A stretch of DNA of 36,737 bases, taken from positions 1-36,737 of IMG/VR virus record IMGVR_UViG_3300005043_000007. One strand, written 5' to 3'. The notes below the pieces were generated by a model. That model was not told the DNA's origin and made no database searches. It saw only the letters and a program-made list of their open reading frames with translations. Within the stretch, counting starts at the first letter, position 1. Every line of letters starts with the position of its first letter. A program made the position numbers and the translations under genes. The stretch comes from a virus. Below, piece by piece: positions 4,363 through 33,362 of this stretch.

Positions 4363-4506
4363 ATGAGAAATCAAAAGTACAAAACCCGCGCCATGATGGA
4401 AAATGACCTGAAAGCCTATAAAAAACGCTTATTAAAAGCTGAATTGTTCTTCTGGTTAATTATAATCGTTAGTTTAACGTCTTTAATCGTGAAAATTATC
4501 ACATGA
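4363..4506 (+). CDS. Small membrane protein, 47 aa
   Basis: ATG at 4363, TGA at 4504-4506 overlapping the methyltransferase start (ATGA at 4503). The N-terminal 25 residues are basic (MRNQKYKTRAMMENDLKAYKKRLLK). Residues 28-46 are a clear hydrophobic segment (LFFWLIIIVSLTSLIVKII). This is a tail-anchored or single-pass inner-membrane topology with the N-terminus inside. AAGTTAAAA upstream is a weak ribosome binding site. Coupling to the methyltransferase gene is likely; function unknown. Confidence 0.5.
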   Translation: MRNQKYKTRAMMENDLKAYKKRLLKAELFFWLIIIVSLTSLIVKIIT

Positions 4507-5297
4507 GGGTTCTCGATTTATTCAGCGGTATAGGCGGCTTTTCTCTTGGGCTTGAACGCGCTGGAATGGAAACAGTGGCTTTTTGTGAGATAGAAGATTT
4601 CCCCCGGTCCGTACTAGCCAAACACTGGCCAGACGTTCCAATTTTTAGAGATGTTAGGAGTTTAGATTATGACGGAACAGTTGACCTTATTTGCGGGGGA
4701 TTCCCTTGTCAGCCATTCAGTGTTGCCGGGCAGCGAAAAGGCGCAGATGATGACCGCCACCTCTGGCCAGCTATGTTTGGCCTCATCAAGAAATACAAGC
4801 CGCGTTGGGTTATTGGAGAAAATGTTGCTGGTTTCGTCAGCATGGCGCTCGACGACGTGCTTACTGACTTGGAGGGTGAGGGTTACAGATGCCAATCATT
4901 TATTATTCCAGCTTGCGCCGTCAACGCCCCTCATAGAAGGGACAGAGTTTGGATTGTGGCACACGCCGAAAGCTCTAATGATAGAGGAGGATCCGGAGAG
5001 TTTTATAAAAAGAATGGGGGACAGATCGGACAAATGCGCGCCAAATCTAGCAGTTCAAGTCAAGCACAAACGTCTCTGGCCGACCCCGAGAGTATTTATG
5101 CACAAGGACAGCACAACAGACAGGGGGAAAGGGAATTTAGGGGAAGTAGTTGGTGGGAAATTGAACCCGATGTGGGTCGAGTGGCTAATGGGGTTCCCAG
5201 AAGGGTGGACAGACTTAAATCACTCGGAAACGCAGTCGTCCCGCAAATACCCGAAATTTTAGGTCTGGCAATAATGGAAATAGAAAATGAAAAGTAA
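4503..5297 (+). CDS. dcm-like: DNA (cytosine-5) methyltransferase
   Basis: 264 residues with the full C5-MTase motif set: motif I DLFSGIGGFSLGLE (residues 5-18, SAM binding), motif IV GGFPCQPFS with catalytic Cys69, motif VI GENV (106-109), motif VIII APHRRDRVWIVA (142-153), and motifs IX/X as VDRLKSLGNAVVPQIPEI (235-252). It methylates cytosine in double-stranded DNA, probably protecting phage DNA from host restriction; no cognate endonuclease is nearby. The target-recognition part (about 155-218) is short and low in complexity (Ser/Gln/Gly-rich), which is odd. That same stretch of DNA is also read in the +1 frame by a 197-codon ORF with its own ribosome binding site. The 3' end overlaps the adenine-type methyltransferase by 11 bases. 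Confidence 0.92.
   Translation: MRVLDLFSGIGGFSLGLERAGMETVAFCEIEDFPRSVLAKHWPDVPIFRDVRSLDYDGTVDLICGGFPCQPFSVAGQRKGADDDRHLWPAMFGLIKKYKPRWVIGENVAGFVSMALDDVLTDLEGEGYRCQSFIIPACAVNAPHRRDRVWIVAHAESSNDRGGSGEFYKKNGGQIGQMRAKSSSSSQAQTSLADPESIYAQGQHNRQGEREFRGSSWWEIEPDVGRVANGVPRRVDRLKSLGNAVVPQIPEILGLAIMEIENEK
4669..5262 (+). CDS. Overprinted protein, 197 aa, nested in the +1 frame of the cytosine methyltransferase gene
   Basis: A 594-base open frame lies entirely inside the methyltransferase gene. Its ATG (4669) is preceded by AGGAG (4656-4660) with 8-base spacing, as good as any start in the window. The product starts MTEQLTLFAGDSLVSHSVLP, continues with SAWRSTTCLLTWRVRV, FQLAPSTPL and EFGLWHTPKALM, then RLWPTPRVF. 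It ends with GKLNPMWVEWLMGFPEGWTDL and a short tail. I recall this C-terminal LNPxWVEWLMGFPxGWTDL signature and the LFAGDS...LWPTP pattern from many phage and prophage proteins annotated separately or as methyltransferase parts. If so, two conserved proteins share this DNA. Function unknown; it could be a specificity or accessory partner of the enzyme. Not verified by search. Confidence 0.7.
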   Translation: MTEQLTLFAGDSLVSHSVLPGSEKAQMMTATSGQLCLASSRNTSRVGLLEKMLLVSSAWRSTTCLLTWRVRVTDANHLLFQLAPSTPLIEGTEFGLWHTPKALMIEEDPESFIKRMGDRSDKCAPNLAVQVKHKRLWPTPRVFMHKDSTTDRGKGNLGEVVGGKLNPMWVEWLMGFPEGWTDLNHSETQSSRKYPKF

Positions 5298-5799
5298 AAT
5301 GCCGCCAATGGGATCAGGTCGCCCGAACAATTTCCAGACGAAAGATCCACATATAGCTCTTCCGCCTATACTCCAACATGTCACCAAGGAAAAGAAAATC
5401 TGGTGTTGTTCATCAGGAGAAGGACGCCTGGTCGATTATATTCGTGATGAAGGCTATGACGTCACCGGCACAGATATTTTAAATGGTTTCGACTTCCTTG
5501 ATTCTTTCGCAGAGATCCCCGACTTCGATATCATCATCGAAAACCCGCCCTATGACATAAAGGACAAATGGCTTCAGCGATGCTTTGATCTTGGAAAGCC
5601 CTTTGCTTTATTGTTACCGGCGGCCGCAATCGGAGAACAGAAACGCGTCGCTATGTATAAAAAGTATGGGATACAGATCATGCTTCCAACGGCTAGAACT
5701 CAATTTATCACCCCAAACGGAACAGAGGGCGGCGCATGGTTTTATTCGGCGTGGTTCTGCTGGAAATTATTACCGGAACAAATTTGTTTTGCTGATTGA
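5287..5799 (+). CDS. N6-adenine-type DNA methyltransferase, small
   Basis: 170 residues. The catalytic motif IV is IIENPPYD (NPPY at 86-89), typical of amino-methyltransferases acting on adenine N6. Motif I is degenerate: WCCSSGEGRLVDYI at 39-52, followed by an acidic second strand GTDILNGFDFLD. ALLLPAAAIGEQKR and FITPNGTEGGAWFYSAWFCWKL complete the fold. Its size and absence of a target-recognition domain fit the short phage MTase-like proteins that may act with little sequence specificity. It overlaps the cytosine methyltransferase by 11 bases, so the two modification genes are coupled. The stop codon lies within the -35 box of the next promoter. Confidence 0.75.
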   Translation: MKSKMPPMGSGRPNNFQTKDPHIALPPILQHVTKEKKIWCCSSGEGRLVDYIRDEGYDVTGTDILNGFDFLDSFAEIPDFDIIIENPPYDIKDKWLQRCFDLGKPFALLLPAAAIGEQKRVAMYKKYGIQIMLPTARTQFITPNGTEGGAWFYSAWFCWKLLPEQICFAD

Positions 5800-7008: not shown

Positions 7009-7827
7009 ATGAGCAAGTTTCACCCAGAAAACCCAGAAGGCATAAAACAAACGCCGGAAAATATTGCGGCGCATGAGAGAGGGCAGGAAGTCACCATCCC
7101 ACAAGGAACGGCAATCGTAAGCGCAGAACAGCAAATGATCCAATCGATCGCGGTTATGGCGCAAGATCCGAACGTTGACGTCGAGAAGATGGAAAAGCTT
7201 TTTGATATTCAGATCAAAATGATGGACAGGCAAGCGAAAATGGACTTCGATCAAGCCCTAGCGAGAGTTCAGGCAGACATGCCACGCATCACGGAGAACG
7301 GCCAGATCAAAAATAGGGAAGGGCGCGTCACCGCAACATATTTGAAGTATGAAGACATAGATCGAGAGATCAGACCACGCCTATCGGCCGAAGGGTTTTC
7401 ATTAGTTCACACCAGAACCGAAAACAACAACAAAATGATCGTTATAACCAAACTCAAGCACAAAGGAGGGCATGAAGAAGTTGTTGAAATGCCCCTTCCT
7501 TATGACGCGCCGAACAAAATGAAGAACCCTGTGCAAGCCGCAGTCTCTACATTCTCATACGGCAAGCGTGTGAATGTGTGCTCTCTTCTGAATATCGTGG
7601 CGCAAGGTCAAGACGACGACGGTCAAATGGCAGATTGTAATCCAATATCTGACGAACAGGCGGCCGAGATTAAAGATCGTCTTGAAAAGCTATACGACGC
7701 CGGCTCAAACGTAGATACAAGAAAGCTCTTGAATTATATTGGAGCGAATAGCGTTGATGAAATCCCAGCCACCAAATACGAAGACACGATCGCGCTTCTA
7801 GCTAGAAAAGAAAGTGAAGGTGTATAA
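7009..7827 (+). CDS. erf-like: ERF-family single-strand annealing protein
   Basis: 272 residues. Residues about 70-200 match the ERF superfamily: AKMDFDQALARVQADMP, then TYLKYEDIDREIRPRLSAEGFSLVHTRTE, VITKLKHKGGHEEVVEMPLPYD and the conserved NPVQAAVSTFSYGKRVNVCSLLNIV. ERF proteins coat single-stranded DNA and anneal complementary strands during phage recombination and circularisation. The C-terminal 60 residues form a separate helical domain (DEQAAEIKDRLEKLYDAG, RKLLNYIGANSVDEIPA). It works with the YqaJ exonuclease two genes downstream, an equivalent of lambda Red. The stop overlaps the next start (TAATG). Confidence 0.9.
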   Translation: MSKFHPENPEGIKQTPENIAAHERGQEVTIPQGTAIVSAEQQMIQSIAVMAQDPNVDVEKMEKLFDIQIKMMDRQAKMDFDQALARVQADMPRITENGQIKNREGRVTATYLKYEDIDREIRPRLSAEGFSLVHTRTENNNKMIVITKLKHKGGHEEVVEMPLPYDAPNKMKNPVQAAVSTFSYGKRVNVCSLLNIVAQGQDDDGQMADCNPISDEQAAEIKDRLEKLYDAGSNVDTRKLLNYIGANSVDEIPATKYEDTIALLARKESEGV

Positions 7828-8087
7828 TGGGCAAAAAATTATATTATGTGCAAGACAAGCGACAGATTGTAGGAAATTCGATGCTGTGGTGGGCGAAAGA
7901 CAGCAGAGGATATACTTGCGATATTCGAAAAGCCCATGTGTTCAGTGAAAGCGAAATAAAAAACTTTCGTGATACTGATATACCTTGGCCGAAAGACTTT
8001 ATTGACGGACGTCTACAGCACCACGTCGACTGCCAATCTGTAAAAACAGACCTAGAACAATGGAAGGTTCACAATGAGACACTTTGA
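7827..8087 (+). CDS. Conserved small phage protein of the recombination operon
   Basis: 86 residues, start overlapping the ERF stop by one base. The sequence KLYYVQDKRQIVGNSMLWWAKDSRGYTCDIRKAHVFSESE followed by WPKDFIDGRLQHHVDCQ looks familiar from small phage proteins that sit next to recombinases. The pattern 'yyvqD.r..vGNsm.WW.kd..GYtcdi..A.vf' recurs there. No catalytic motif is evident and the function is unknown to me. It is held between the annealing protein and the exonuclease, overlapping both, so a role in the same process is plausible. Confidence 0.75.
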   Translation: MGKKLYYVQDKRQIVGNSMLWWAKDSRGYTCDIRKAHVFSESEIKNFRDTDIPWPKDFIDGRLQHHVDCQSVKTDLEQWKVHNETL

Positions 8088-8793
8088 TTTCGTACACAAC
8101 ACAGACCCATGGATGAGAGCGCGCGGAGGTTTGGCCACCACGTCTTCGTTCGGAAGCATCATCACGCCAAGCGGAGCGAAAAGCGGCCAGATGGACGGCT
8201 ATGCGAACCAGGTCGTCGTCGAATTATTGCTTGGCAAGTCCTGCGATCGTGATTTAAGCAACCTTTACGCGATCCAATGGGGTCACGAATGGGAGGACAA
8301 GGCGGCGGATCTCTATCAATTCGAAACAGGATTCGATCTTAAGCACGGCGGCTTCTTCACCGATGATCATTTCAAATACGGTGCGTCGCCTGATGCGATC
8401 GTCATGGACGACGGCGCGGAAGTTGGTTTGGTTGAGATAAAATGCCCTGAAAACCCTGTAAAGCATGTTGAATTTCTCTTCTCGCAGACGATCAACAAGA
8501 CTTACAAGCCGCAGCTATTCGGTCAAATGATTATCACAGGATTCGAATGGGTAGATTATTTTTCTTTCTATCCAGAACTTCCACACGTGAAGATCAAGAC
8601 CAGGAAAGAAGACGACTTGGTTTTCTATAAAAAACTTGAAGATCTTCTGGATGAATTCAGTGACTTGGTTCAGACGAAGCTTGAAGCGATGGTCGCATGT
8701 GGTCATATAAACGAAGTCCCGGTCAAGTTCATAGAGCAACCGAAAGAAGTCGTGCAGCCTAACAATTCACAGTCAACATATATGGCTGGATAA
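8074..8793 (+). CDS. YqaJ/lambda-exonuclease-type 5'-3' exonuclease
   Basis: 239 residues. The PD-(D/E)XK core is complete: GHEWEDKAADLY (70-81, conserved Glu), GASPDAIV with Asp107, VEIKCPENP with Glu121 and Lys123, and YKPQLFGQMIITGFEW. The start is RARGGLATTSSFGSIITPSG, the substrate-binding part. The enzyme degrades one strand of linear duplex DNA to give the single strands used by the ERF protein. The gene overlaps the previous one by 14 bases. Confidence 0.9.
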   Translation: MRHFDFVHNTDPWMRARGGLATTSSFGSIITPSGAKSGQMDGYANQVVVELLLGKSCDRDLSNLYAIQWGHEWEDKAADLYQFETGFDLKHGGFFTDDHFKYGASPDAIVMDDGAEVGLVEIKCPENPVKHVEFLFSQTINKTYKPQLFGQMIITGFEWVDYFSFYPELPHVKIKTRKEDDLVFYKKLEDLLDEFSDLVQTKLEAMVACGHINEVPVKFIEQPKEVVQPNNSQSTYMAG

Positions 8794-29659: not shown

Positions 29660-31381
29660 CTAAGTATTTCCTGTGTTTTCAGCGACCGCCGCGTCTTTTG
29701 CAGTTCCGGCCACTTGTTGCATTAATTGTGCCTGTTGTTGGGCTTCTACGGCCTCTTGCTCTTTTGCGACCGATTTTTCTACGTCAGCTTGTTTCTTCCA
29801 CATTCGAGAATCAGCCCCCTTGATCTCAGTCAAGCGGTTCAGTGTCCAGTCCCAGTCTATGCGGTGACGAATTGTTTCATCGAATGATGATCCTTGGCCA
29901 GCGATTTCAAGCATTTCTACCATGCCTTGACCTTCTTCGGACATCATGTCGCGCGCAGCCGGTGTCAGATATTCGGTCTTATAAACATCTTCTTCGGCTT
30001 CCATTGCTTTAAGGAATTTTTCAGGAAGGTATTTAACTTTTTCTCCGTTTGCTTCTTTGGCTTGTGCGATCGGATCACCCGGAACATAACCGAATTTATT
30101 GCGTCGCAAGCAAATATTGAATGCTGTGGTGATAATGACGTCAAACTTTTCAAGCAAGATCCGGCTTACAATTGATCGAAGCGTGGATTGTCGTATTGCA
30201 TTGCGCAAAAACGCTTCGCCTTTCGTCATTTCGACGTCATTATTTAAATTAATCAAGCGATCGATCATAAAGTGATTGCTGATATTATTCTCTAATCCTT
30301 CGATAATTTCCGGCGCATTACGGATTTCCTGTATGTCGTATAATTTACCAGTGGGGGCAATGCCAGGCGTTGCCTTATCAACACGAAGAATATTTGCAGC
30401 GCCGGCCGAGGTGTCTATATATCCATTCCCTGCAACACAGTCATTCAATTGATACATTGGCGGATCGAGGTTCTTTTCCATCGCCAGCATAAAGTCTTCC
30501 ATAACCTGATTAAGCATCATAATCGAAGGCAGGGCATTCATGCCACGACCACGGCCATATTTCTCGCCGATACGTTTGGATAGGCGCGCGCATGCAAGAG
30601 GAAGTTCCTGATATCCAGATTCACGAAGCATCTTTTTACTATCAACTTCTATATGAATAGATTTATAAGGCATGTCTTTTGCTGCGATTGATCCTTCTTT
30701 TCTCTCGCTTTCAGGGCGTTCAGCTATAACATGCAAGACTTTGAATTTTTCTTCCATCTTGCCTTCATTGAATAACTTGCGAACTTTTGCCGAAACCTTC
30801 TCGATCGTGTACTTCTCGACAAGTTGAGAAACGGTATATTCTCTGCGACGGTTGAATTCTGTGGCGCGTCCTGTGGAGTTCTCTCCTAGATTGAATTGCT
30901 GTATTGACCAAGGCTCAAAGCTCAAACATCCTAGTTGTGGTTTGTCACGATTCCTTTCTTCGGTGAAGACGCCATCTGTCCCCAATGTAATCAGATCAAG
31001 CATACTTTCATCAAGCGCGATAGACAGGCCAGCCGGCTGATCGTCCATTTCATCTTGAAGAATTTCGGTCGTTTCTTTCCAGAAGGCAATCATTTCCTTA
31101 TCTTTGCCGAATACCTTTTCATTTCCTGCAAGCCTGAAGGACTTCGTTCCAGACGACCAGATATATCCGAGGAACGCACTCGCAGAGGTTTCAGCCAAAT
31201 GGATAGGGGCATCAGACCAAATCAAGGAAGTAATGAAAGCGCCTGGCGTGCGTGATGTTTGAAAATCTGCGCGGCGTTGATGAATATATTCGGATACGAG
31301 TTGCCATTGCGGAAGCCAGAAAGTTCGCTCAACGGCAAGCTGTTCTTCTCGTTCAAGATATTCGTTGACCGTTTTTGCCAT
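29660..31381 (-). CDS. Portal / head-to-tail connecting protein
   Basis: 573 residues. The start and body fit the T7/epsilon15-type head-to-tail connector: VNEYLEREEQLAVERTFWLPQWQLVSEYIHQRRADF, ASAFLGYIWSSGTKSFRLA, ALDESMLDLITLGTDGVF, CLSFEPWSIQQFNLGE, then GYQELPLACARLSKRIGEKYGRGRGMNALPSIMMLNQVMEDFMLAMEKNLDPP. The C-terminal helical barrel is Gln/Ala-rich. It forms the dodecameric ring through which DNA is packed and ejected. Confidence 0.92.
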   Translation of the reverse strand: MAKTVNEYLEREEQLAVERTFWLPQWQLVSEYIHQRRADFQTSRTPGAFITSLIWSDAPIHLAETSASAFLGYIWSSGTKSFRLAGNEKVFGKDKEMIAFWKETTEILQDEMDDQPAGLSIALDESMLDLITLGTDGVFTEERNRDKPQLGCLSFEPWSIQQFNLGENSTGRATEFNRRREYTVSQLVEKYTIEKVSAKVRKLFNEGKMEEKFKVLHVIAERPESERKEGSIAAKDMPYKSIHIEVDSKKMLRESGYQELPLACARLSKRIGEKYGRGRGMNALPSIMMLNQVMEDFMLAMEKNLDPPMYQLNDCVAGNGYIDTSAGAANILRVDKATPGIAPTGKLYDIQEIRNAPEIIEGLENNISNHFMIDRLINLNNDVEMTKGEAFLRNAIRQSTLRSIVSRILLEKFDVIITTAFNICLRRNKFGYVPGDPIAQAKEANGEKVKYLPEKFLKAMEAEEDVYKTEYLTPAARDMMSEEGQGMVEMLEIAGQGSSFDETIRHRIDWDWTLNRLTEIKGADSRMWKKQADVEKSVAKEQEAVEAQQQAQLMQQVAGTAKDAAVAENTGNT

Positions 31382-31382
31382 T

Positions 31383-31625
31383 TTATAGCCCCAATAATGA
31401 TTTAGAAGTTACGTTCTGATCTTGACCAAGTGGATTGAATGCCGTGCTTGTTCCTGCGTTCGCTGCAACTCTGCGCTGCCTCTTCTTCTGTTCGATCTGT
31501 TCAGGTGTCTGCGCTGTGTCTTGTGCTTTTTGCTGTATAGTTTCCGGTTTGTCGTCCTTATCTCTTGCAAGATTAGAGATCAATCCGATCGGTGTTAGTG
31601 CTGCTAAATCTTTAAGAAAACCCAT
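31383..31625 (-). CDS. Small head-region protein, paralogue of its neighbour (copy 2)
   Basis: 80 residues; AGGAT before the ATG. It begins MGFLKDLAALTP, has a Lys/Gln/Arg-rich middle (EQIEQKKRQRRVAANAGTSTAF) and ends TSKSLLGL. The neighbour upstream has the same start (MGFVKRL), the same basic Ala/Asn/Ala/Gly-Thr-Ser core and an almost identical end (TSKTLLGL). Short proteins with such an 'r.a...ag......sLLG' ending commonly precede portal genes. Function unknown. Confidence 0.7.
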   Translation of the reverse strand: MGFLKDLAALTPIGLISNLARDKDDKPETIQQKAQDTAQTPEQIEQKKRQRRVAANAGTSTAFNPLGQDQNVTSKSLLGL

Positions 31626-31627
31626 GA

Positions 31628-31852
31628 TTATAATCCTAACAATGTTTTAGATGTTATATTCGGAGATCCTGTCCCGACTGTACTTGCACCGCCAGAAGTC
31701 CCAGCATTTGAAGCGATTAATGCTTGTTTTCTTTTCTTGTCTTCTCTCGCGACGGCTTGGGATGAAGCTGCGTCAGCACTGACAGGTGTTGTCGTATTAA
31801 CAGGTTGAGCCTTTGGTTCAGTTCCGCCGACTAGTCTTTTCACGAACCCCAT
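31628..31852 (-). CDS. Small head-region protein, paralogue of its neighbour (copy 1)
   Basis: 74 residues. It starts MGFVKRLVGGTEPKAQPVNTT, then AREDKKRKQALIASNAGTSGGAS, and ends NITSKTLLGL. The first 35 bases lie inside the end of the large terminase gene in another frame. The shared start, middle and C-terminus with the following gene show that the two arose by tandem duplication. They may form an accessory component between terminase and portal. Confidence 0.7.
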   Translation of the reverse strand: MGFVKRLVGGTEPKAQPVNTTTPVSADAASSQAVAREDKKRKQALIASNAGTSGGASTVGTGSPNITSKTLLGL

Positions 31853-33362
31853 ATCCTGCTTCCCTTCTTCGTTGCATAGTCATAGATCCAGATCCAGGCC
31901 GGCTACCTCGCGACGCTGTGGTGTCTATTATATCCAAAAGCTGAGGATATGCAAATTGCAAGACAAATGCCGTCCCATAATCAGGCGAAGGAAGGTCGCG
32001 AAGCTTTAGATCTGCGACCTTTTCAAGCTGAACTTTATTGGATGGGACGGTCATGCAATACGTCATGTTGACAAGATCTTCTTTCAATCGGTCGTCTTTT
32101 GGTAATTCATACCCGTCAGCAATAGCGAGCGCGGCACGCCACCACATTTCTGCTCTTACAAGCATGAATTTATCGGGATCTTGCGCAGATTTCCCACTAT
32201 TGACGCCGGTCACAGGAAGACACCAAGTTTCCAAAATGTCAGTAACGCCACCACCGACGCCATTATCATCAACAAAAATGCGGATCTTAGCGTGAGGATA
32301 GCGTTTCCTATAGTGCCGATAAGCATCCGCCGCATAAGTCGCGGTCATGACGACTGTGGTCTTGCTATTATCCGGCTTCTGATATGCTTGAAGTTCATGG
32401 CCTTTCTTGCCCTGCCACACACCAACGGTCGTCAAATCTTCGCCTTCACGCGCAACGTCAACACAAATAGAAATAGGATATATTTCAAAGCCTATGGCCT
32501 TATATTCATTCATACAGAAATCGACGTCTTGCTCACTGCAAAGCTGTCCTGAAGCCATACGTGGGAACTTACCCTTGACACGGATGCGTGAAAAGTCGCT
32601 ATCTTCTCCATAATCCTCTATCCACTGCCTAATCTTTCCCTTGTTGGTTTTGCGCGCGGTTCGACTGTCAATGCTTCTGGTTATCCAACGATGGCGGAAC
32701 TTTCCAAAACATGCACGAAAGCGACCAGTGTTCCGCGTAGGGTTGCCGAATACGATCCATAAACACCGCAAAGTCGTCATAGCTCCTTCTGAAACGTCCC
32801 ATATAGAATCATCGATCGCAGATCCTTCGTCGAAGAGGTACAGCACATTTTCCGCGTGAGTACCGGCGAAGGCCTCGGAATTTTGCTTTGACCACGGCAC
32901 GGCCTCCGCCTTCCATTCCGCCTTATTTTCTTTTAGTTTGTAAGTTTCGGCTGTCCATTCAAATAAATGCTTATGAACCATTTGATCGTGCCACTTATGC
33001 AGCTCTGCCCATGTCTTGCCGGATAATTGCTTGAAGGTGTTTGCTGTGACAATAATGCGAGGCGTGACGTGTGTGCTAATAAACCAGAGATTAATCCAAG
33101 ACATCAAGGCAGTTTTCCCGATACCATGACCTGATGCGACTGCTATTTGTATAGGGATCTTCTCGTCTTCAGGAAGGGGTTCGTTCTTTTTTAAGCCCAT
33201 TTGAATATCGTTCAGAACGGCGATCTGCCATCGGTCAGGATATTCTTTTTCAAGTGATGATCCCTCTTCGCCCCAAGGAAACGCCCAAAGCACAAAACCA
33301 AGAGGATCATCCTTAAATGAAGCCATAATTTCAGCAAGATCAGTCGTCTCTATCGGGATCAT
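31818..33362 (-). CDS. terL: Large terminase subunit
   Basis: 514 residues. ATPase: Walker A as ASGHGIGKTAL (76-86) and Walker B as VLYLFDEGSAID (residues 173-184, with the DE at 178-179); FGNPTRNTGRF follows as the coupling motif. The nuclease domain has acidic residues in CVDVAREGEDL (Asp302) and IFVDDNGVGGGV (Asp365/366). It cuts and pumps phage DNA into the head at the portal. Start overlaps the upstream gene by 23 bases. Confidence 0.95.
   Translation of the reverse strand: MIPIETTDLAEIMASFKDDPLGFVLWAFPWGEEGSSLEKEYPDRWQIAVLNDIQMGLKKNEPLPEDEKIPIQIAVASGHGIGKTALMSWINLWFISTHVTPRIIVTANTFKQLSGKTWAELHKWHDQMVHKHLFEWTAETYKLKENKAEWKAEAVPWSKQNSEAFAGTHAENVLYLFDEGSAIDDSIWDVSEGAMTTLRCLWIVFGNPTRNTGRFRACFGKFRHRWITRSIDSRTARKTNKGKIRQWIEDYGEDSDFSRIRVKGKFPRMASGQLCSEQDVDFCMNEYKAIGFEIYPISICVDVAREGEDLTTVGVWQGKKGHELQAYQKPDNSKTTVVMTATYAADAYRHYRKRYPHAKIRIFVDDNGVGGGVTDILETWCLPVTGVNSGKSAQDPDKFMLVRAEMWWRAALAIADGYELPKDDRLKEDLVNMTYCMTVPSNKVQLEKVADLKLRDLPSPDYGTAFVLQFAYPQLLDIIDTTASRGSRPGSGSMTMQRRREAGYGVREKTSRRN

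Follow-up and report, generated by a model that had tools for sequence, protein, structure and literature searches.

The window analysed here, the whole 36,737-nucleotide stretch of IMG/VR virus record IMGVR_UViG_3300005043_000007, is a 36.7-kb tailed-phage genome encoding an Erf-like annealing protein, a RecE-like exonuclease, a terminase large subunit, and a PHROG 332 connector (7009-7827, 8074-8793, 29660-33362). Within its C5-cytosine DNA methyltransferase gene (the outer gene), a second open reading frame (the inner gene) of 197 codons plus a stop is wholly contained in the +1 frame (Table 1). An earlier note, made from the sequence alone, had described this uninterrupted 594-base frame, an AGGAG at 8-base spacing from its ATG, and several peptides (e.g., LFAGDS, LWHTP, and RLWPTP); the frame and the AGGAG lie where described, and all of the peptides were located in the translations. 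The next gene (5287-5799, plus strand) shares 11 nt with the end of the outer gene, and its product has a match to PHROG 799 (DNA methyltransferase; 2.3e-24); this operon of the phage may therefore encode a second modification enzyme.

Table 1. Features of the nested methyltransferase locus, in window coordinates
Feature	Position	Strand	Basis
Outer gene, proposed catalytic subunit of a C5-cytosine DNA methyltransferase, 264 aa	4503..5297	+	PF00145, PHROG 363
Outer residues 1-156, large domain, motifs I-VIII	4503..4970	+	AF2, Foldseek, conservation
Outer residues 157-229, disordered linker in place of TRD and motif IX	4971..5189	+	AF2
Outer residues 234-264, motif X (LGNAVVPQI) and C-terminal helices	5202..5294	+	AF2, conservation
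AGGAG, Shine-Dalgarno-like site of the inner gene	4656..4660	+	Sequence; 8 nt before ATG 4669
Inner gene, +1 frame, proposed recognition (small-domain) subunit, 197 aa	4669..5262	+	Open frame, PHROG 1008, purifying selection
Inner residues 62-90, conserved beta-hairpin (CLLTWRVRVTDANHLLFQLAP)	4852..4938	+	AF2
Inner module 1 (WHTPKALMIEEDPESFIKRMGDRSDKCAPNLAVQVKHKRL), proposed target-recognition unit	4957..5076	+	Module parsing
Inner module 2 (WPTPRVFMHKDSTTDRGKGNLGEVVGGK), proposed target-recognition unit	5077..5160	+	Identity to L047/L051 modules
Inner motif IX-like segment LNPMWVEWLMGFPEGWTDL	5161..5217	+	hhalign, blastp

The outer protein matches PHROG 363 (1.2e-87) and Pfam family PF00145 (3.6e-42), the latter over residues 1-172 only, and its alignment to M.HhaI stops at residue 156, at motif VIII. 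Motif I, PCQ of motif IV (residues 68-70), ENV of motif VI (106-108), RxR of motif VIII (146-148), and GN of motif X are all present, as expected of a PF00145 member, whereas the combination of a TRD and motif IX in one chain is not. The catalytic residues are invariant among 103 relatives, in which GNAV of motif X is nearly invariant. In the AF2 model, the large domain is predicted with a pLDDT of about 95 over most of residues 1-156 and superimposes by Foldseek on M.HhaI and M.HaeIII (rmsd 1.8-2.0 over about 166 columns of the large domain); residues 161-230 have no secondary structure (pLDDT 42-53), and the C-terminal end regains a pLDDT of 78-97. Order in the model thus extends over residues 1-157 and the motif X end, with disorder over residues 159-229. 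A regular expression for canonical motif IX matched 0 of 197 nested-type outer proteins, compared to 41 of 61 single-chain controls. This control set was built from SPR, a single-chain E. coli plasmid enzyme (L214) having yielded only one relative as a query; in L214 itself, motif IX is in frame (RRLTPRECARLQGYP) and the +1 frame is full of stops. The small domain of C5-methyltransferases comprises the variable region and motif IX and makes specific DNA contacts (PMC3404938). The outer protein is without what that source calls the small domain.

The inner protein matches PHROG 1008, a family labeled 'DNA methyltransferase' (7.2e-29). No Pfam or NCBIfam family was matched, and a comparison of its profile to PDB structures gave no match (best E 0.3). 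Its AF2 model is weak (pLDDT 62, pTM 0.25) and unsuitable for fold comparison, the best-modelled part being the beta-hairpin at residues 62-90 (pLDDT 77-94). By profile comparison, the C-terminal end LNPMWVEWLMGFPEGW falls in register with motif IX of single-chain enzymes: hhalign placed inner residues 164-178 on motif IX with P 0.021 for the whole protein and 0.0004 for the segment alone, which is short, and blastp aligned the segment to motif IX of locus L326 at 10/16 positions. The guess in the earlier note that the second protein is a specificity or accessory subunit is thus supported and can be narrowed to a predicted small domain (TRD plus motif IX), as the outer protein has neither part and the inner protein carries a motif IX-like segment.

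Between the N-terminal part and this segment, inner proteins contain repeated xPTPxA modules with a median length of 40 aa, mostly one to five in each of the 141 proteins parsed and two in the window. Modules at least 70% identical were found in 112 locus pairs whose outer residues 1-155 are less than 55% identical, including 35 pairs in which the shared modules occupy different positions in the array. For instance, module 2 of the window shares 89% identity with modules of two other loci (L047 and L051), against only 44-46% over outer residues 1-155. Such mosaicism is the pattern that would be expected of exchangeable target-recognition units.

These observations suggest that the locus encodes a predicted two-subunit C5-methyltransferase, with the catalytic domain in frame 0 and the recognition domain overprinted in the +1 frame, an interpretation to which a probability of roughly 85% is assigned. 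Frame 0 would specify motifs I-VIII and X of the large catalytic domain, an unstructured linker standing where the small domain would otherwise be, while initiation at the internal Shine-Dalgarno site and ATG would produce a second protein, composed of an N-terminal part with the beta-hairpin, one to several xPTPxA modules of ~40 aa, and the motif IX-like segment. The modules would act as target-recognition units, and pairing of both chains would complete a possibly multispecific C5-methyltransferase that methylates phage DNA at module-chosen sites, conferring protection from host restriction.

The overlap is not confined to the window. As the earlier note had surmised, it is widespread: 553 of 558 viral-contig stretches matched by pattern encode relatives, 414 genome-contig stretches matched one single pattern, and 85 phage records matched, including Paenibacillus, Lacticaseibacillus, Mycobacterium, and Microbacterium phages. 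The best 80 of the 414 genome-contig loci, which come from Bacillota, Pseudomonadota, Bacteroidota, Acidobacteria, and other groups, all lie in the +1 frame of an outer methyltransferase. The same nesting occurs in more divergent enzymes of Klebsiella phage SBP, Escherichia phage pangalan, Xanthomonas phage PhiXhv-5, and a Leptospira plasmid, as well as in E. coli prophages. One E. coli prophage copy (L220:2374-3135) has a stop in both the outer and inner readings and is annotated as a pseudogene with an internal stop. The additional suggestion that the gene had been overlooked holds only in part. Both ORFs are annotated in some phage records, such as that of Paenibacillus phage Shelly (pair gp55/gp56), where gp56 is called 'g55 internal gene', and that of PhiXhv-5, and the label of PHROG 1008 already names a DNA methyltransferase; Lactobacillus phage Lc-Nu is a further phage with this pair; literature searches found no description of an overlapping gene in phage cytosine methyltransferases, and a Paenibacillus phage paper lists the genes without comment on the overlap.

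Among 171 loci in which the motifs could be parsed, 153 have modules and motif IX in the +1 frame and motif X in frame 0, 12 of actinophage type have modules, motif IX, and motif X all in the +1 frame, one is of the L326 type, and five are odd cases. A broader proposal, that in a large class of phage C5-methyltransferases the recognition modules always lie in the +1 frame of the catalytic gene and constitute a separate, modular, and multispecific subunit, with ~40-aa units exchanged among phages regardless of whether motifs IX and X are on the inner chain, on the outer chain, or divided between the two, is considered an even proposition. Two side observations concern other loci. In four single-chain enzymes with motif IX in frame 0 (L241, L266, L267, and L277), a long +1 ORF contains the segment CSLSDILEDxVDxKFFLSExxxxLL, which belongs to the frame-0 reading of other single-chain enzymes (L251, L268, and L281). 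In these four as well, part of the variable region seems to have shifted into another frame. In Gordonia phage McKinley, the deposited gene 4 (L229:1790-2197, 'hypothetical protein') covers the end of a frame-0 methyltransferase reading that is not annotated; this reading has PTPxAxD modules in its +1 frame and no upstream CDS of its own in the record.

Other ARRANGEMENTS of the shared parts, namely the Mycobacterium phage Sabertooth type and the L326 type, bear on whether the inner protein belongs to the enzyme. In Sabertooth, gp79 stops after motif VIII, and the +1-frame product, gp78, combines xPTPxA modules with a motif IX-like LNAAFSEWMMGWEEGW and with motif X (IIGNGVVVQ); gp78 matches PHROG 1008 (4.5e-79), as does the inner protein of the window, along with methyltransferase PHROG 116 (8e-9). 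In L326, RLSPPFVEWLMGLPAG and GNGVVPQ are in frame with motifs I-VIII, the modules are still in the +1 frame, and the single chain matches both PHROG 363 and PHROG 1008, the latter at 6e-40 over its IX-X end. The inclusion of motif X in the inner-protein family of actinophages, and the in-frame fusion in L326 of the C-terminal part of this family to motifs I-VIII, argue against the inner frame being a separate gene (e.g., for an anti-restriction protein, a DNA mimic, or a regulator) that is merely overprinted on the methyltransferase and is not its subunit. The absence of motif IX and of a folded small domain from the outer protein, set against the motif IX-like segment of the inner protein, argues in the same direction, and among the best 80 genome loci, the inner protein was never found without an outer methyltransferase match. 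Thus, although the inner protein has neither a Pfam nor a PDB match and has its own start site, and restriction-related roles are plausible for phages, a separate gene is regarded as unlikely.

A two-subunit enzyme also accounts better for the start signals than does a single chain produced by programmed frameshifting, in which the ribosome would read motifs I-VIII, shift to the +1 frame for the TRD and motif IX, and shift back for motif X. Along the DNA, the motifs do follow the order of a single enzyme, with the frame changing twice. However, a +1-frame stop lies directly before the inner ATG in the window (TAG at 4663-4665, two codons ahead) and in many relatives, and the Shine-Dalgarno site and ATG are conserved. 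A Shine-Dalgarno-like core of at least 4 nt precedes an inner start in 149 of 156 relatives, compared to 67 of 157 in a same-frame control stretch, and ATG is found at an inner start in 141 relatives, compared to 88 in the control stretch; the upstream stop together with these conserved signals points to internal initiation. Frameshifting would furthermore require two opposite shifts at the two ends. One locus, L318, reads through the modules in a single frame, but comparison with its sister L319 shows a change of frame at either end that may be a sequencing error, and it was set aside as a natural single-chain fusion. Frameshifting is accordingly judged to be more improbable still than a separate gene.

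The openness of the +1 frame was assessed by shuffling synonymous codons, with each outer protein and its codon usage held constant. In 200 shuffles of the window gene, the inner stretch acquired a mean of 6.0 stops, and no shuffle (0 of 200) was stop-free; across 158 non-redundant relatives, 6 stops were counted in total versus ~6.05 expected per gene. Because the relatives had been retrieved in part via the inner protein, an unbiased test was run on loci found with the outer protein as the only query. In 43 of the 44 full-length genes, the +1 frame runs for 160 codons or more without a stop, and the longest open run has a median of 220 codons in the +1 frame versus 52 in the +2 frame; in L110, a relative from this query, the +1 frame reaches only 103 codons. 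Upstream of the inner start, the +1 frame is closed (mean of 3.2 stops per 53 codons). Homologues of the methyltransferase therefore keep the +1 frame open, where interruption by stops had been named in the earlier note as evidence against a second gene. In SPR-type single-chain enzymes, the +1 frame mostly contains 15-50 stops (27 in SPR itself).

Substitution patterns provide a second line of evidence. The third position of outer codons corresponds to the second position of inner codons. Between close pairs, outer codon positions 1, 2, and 3 differ at rates of 0.12, 0.08, and 0.30 in the non-overlapping part and of 0.31, 0.13, and 0.10 over outer residues 156-212 (the TRD region), where the outer third position is the least variable, indicating that the inner frame is constrained there. 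When single changes in 35 independent pairs were classed by their effect in both frames, dNN/dNS for the inner frame was 0.24 (95% interval, 0.18-0.29) over outer residues 58-155 and 0.21 (0.15-0.28) over residues 156-212, as opposed to 0.75 (0.67-0.85) in the control region, where the genes of these pairs do not overlap, and dNN/dSN for the outer frame was below 1 in the overlap (0.33 and 0.44). Purifying selection thus acts on both frames; constraint on the outer one alone, the other pattern that the earlier note had listed as contrary evidence, was not observed. Although the N-terminus of the inner protein partly overlies outer motifs IV-VIII, which would somewhat conserve any frame, and phage GC content and codon bias can keep frames open, the reading of the +1 frame as a mere shadow of the composition and constraint of the outer gene, with no second protein, is judged very improbable and is contradicted by the ~6 breaks per gene under synonymous shuffling, the dN/dS ratios, codon-position rates marking the inner frame as the constrained one where the outer TRD region is poorly constrained, the many +1 stops of SPR-type enzymes, and the enrichment of inner start signals over the control stretch. 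The overlap is confirmed as real, selected, and widespread.

If the two-subunit interpretation is correct, this gene pair would count among the more widespread cases of long same-strand overprinting in phages, the partner and function of the second protein would be predictable, and the pair would account for C5-methyltransferases that seemingly have no recognition domain. The annotated gene cloned alone may then show no specific activity, and gene callers that allow one ORF per stretch would miss the specificity subunit. The modules would also offer a plug-in set for the study of phage evasion of restriction.

Several known systems resemble parts of this arrangement. The multispecific C5-methyltransferases of Bacillus phages SPR and phi3T contain several exchangeable recognition units between motifs VIII and IX, which are reportedly about 40 aa each. 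This agrees with the median of 40 aa for the modules described here, a comparison of length and not of sequence; whereas SPR is a single chain that has motif IX in frame, the present modules lie on a second, overprinted chain. In M.EcoHK31I, the closest characterised enzyme, the small polypeptide is likewise read from an alternative frame within the large gene. This YGGCCR-specific enzyme consists of two polypeptides, of which the large subunit carries motifs I-VIII and X and the small one alone carries motif IX, and both proteins are reported as necessary (PMC3404938). The same split, with motif IX in the +1 frame and motif X in frame 0, is found in 153 of the 171 loci, a likeness drawn from the published description only: a search of the collections did not recover the M.EcoHK31I sequence (X82231), the E. 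coli matches by blastn being nested prophage enzymes. The predicted TRD of M.EcoHK31I was placed in the large subunit (PMC3404938), whereas the modules here are in the inner frame, and M.EcoHK31I is part of a restriction-modification system, whereas no restriction gene was identified adjoining the methyltransferase of the window. M.AquI (CYCGRG) is also split into two chains, with motifs I-VIII in one and motifs IX and X in the other (PMC3404938). The window locus shares the placement of motifs I-VIII and motif IX on separate chains and differs in having motif X in the outer chain; the M.AquI arrangement, with a second chain holding the TRD half, motif IX, and motif X, has its counterpart in Sabertooth-type gp79/gp78 loci. 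PHROG 1008 and PHROG 363 are sequence clusters, and the library records no overlap or subunit relation between them. The division of C5-methyltransferase motifs between two polypeptides is thus already known from M.EcoHK31I, and what is new here, relative to the papers searched, is the breadth of the nested arrangement, the evidence of selection on both frames, the shuffled modules, and the alternative arrangements of the shared parts.
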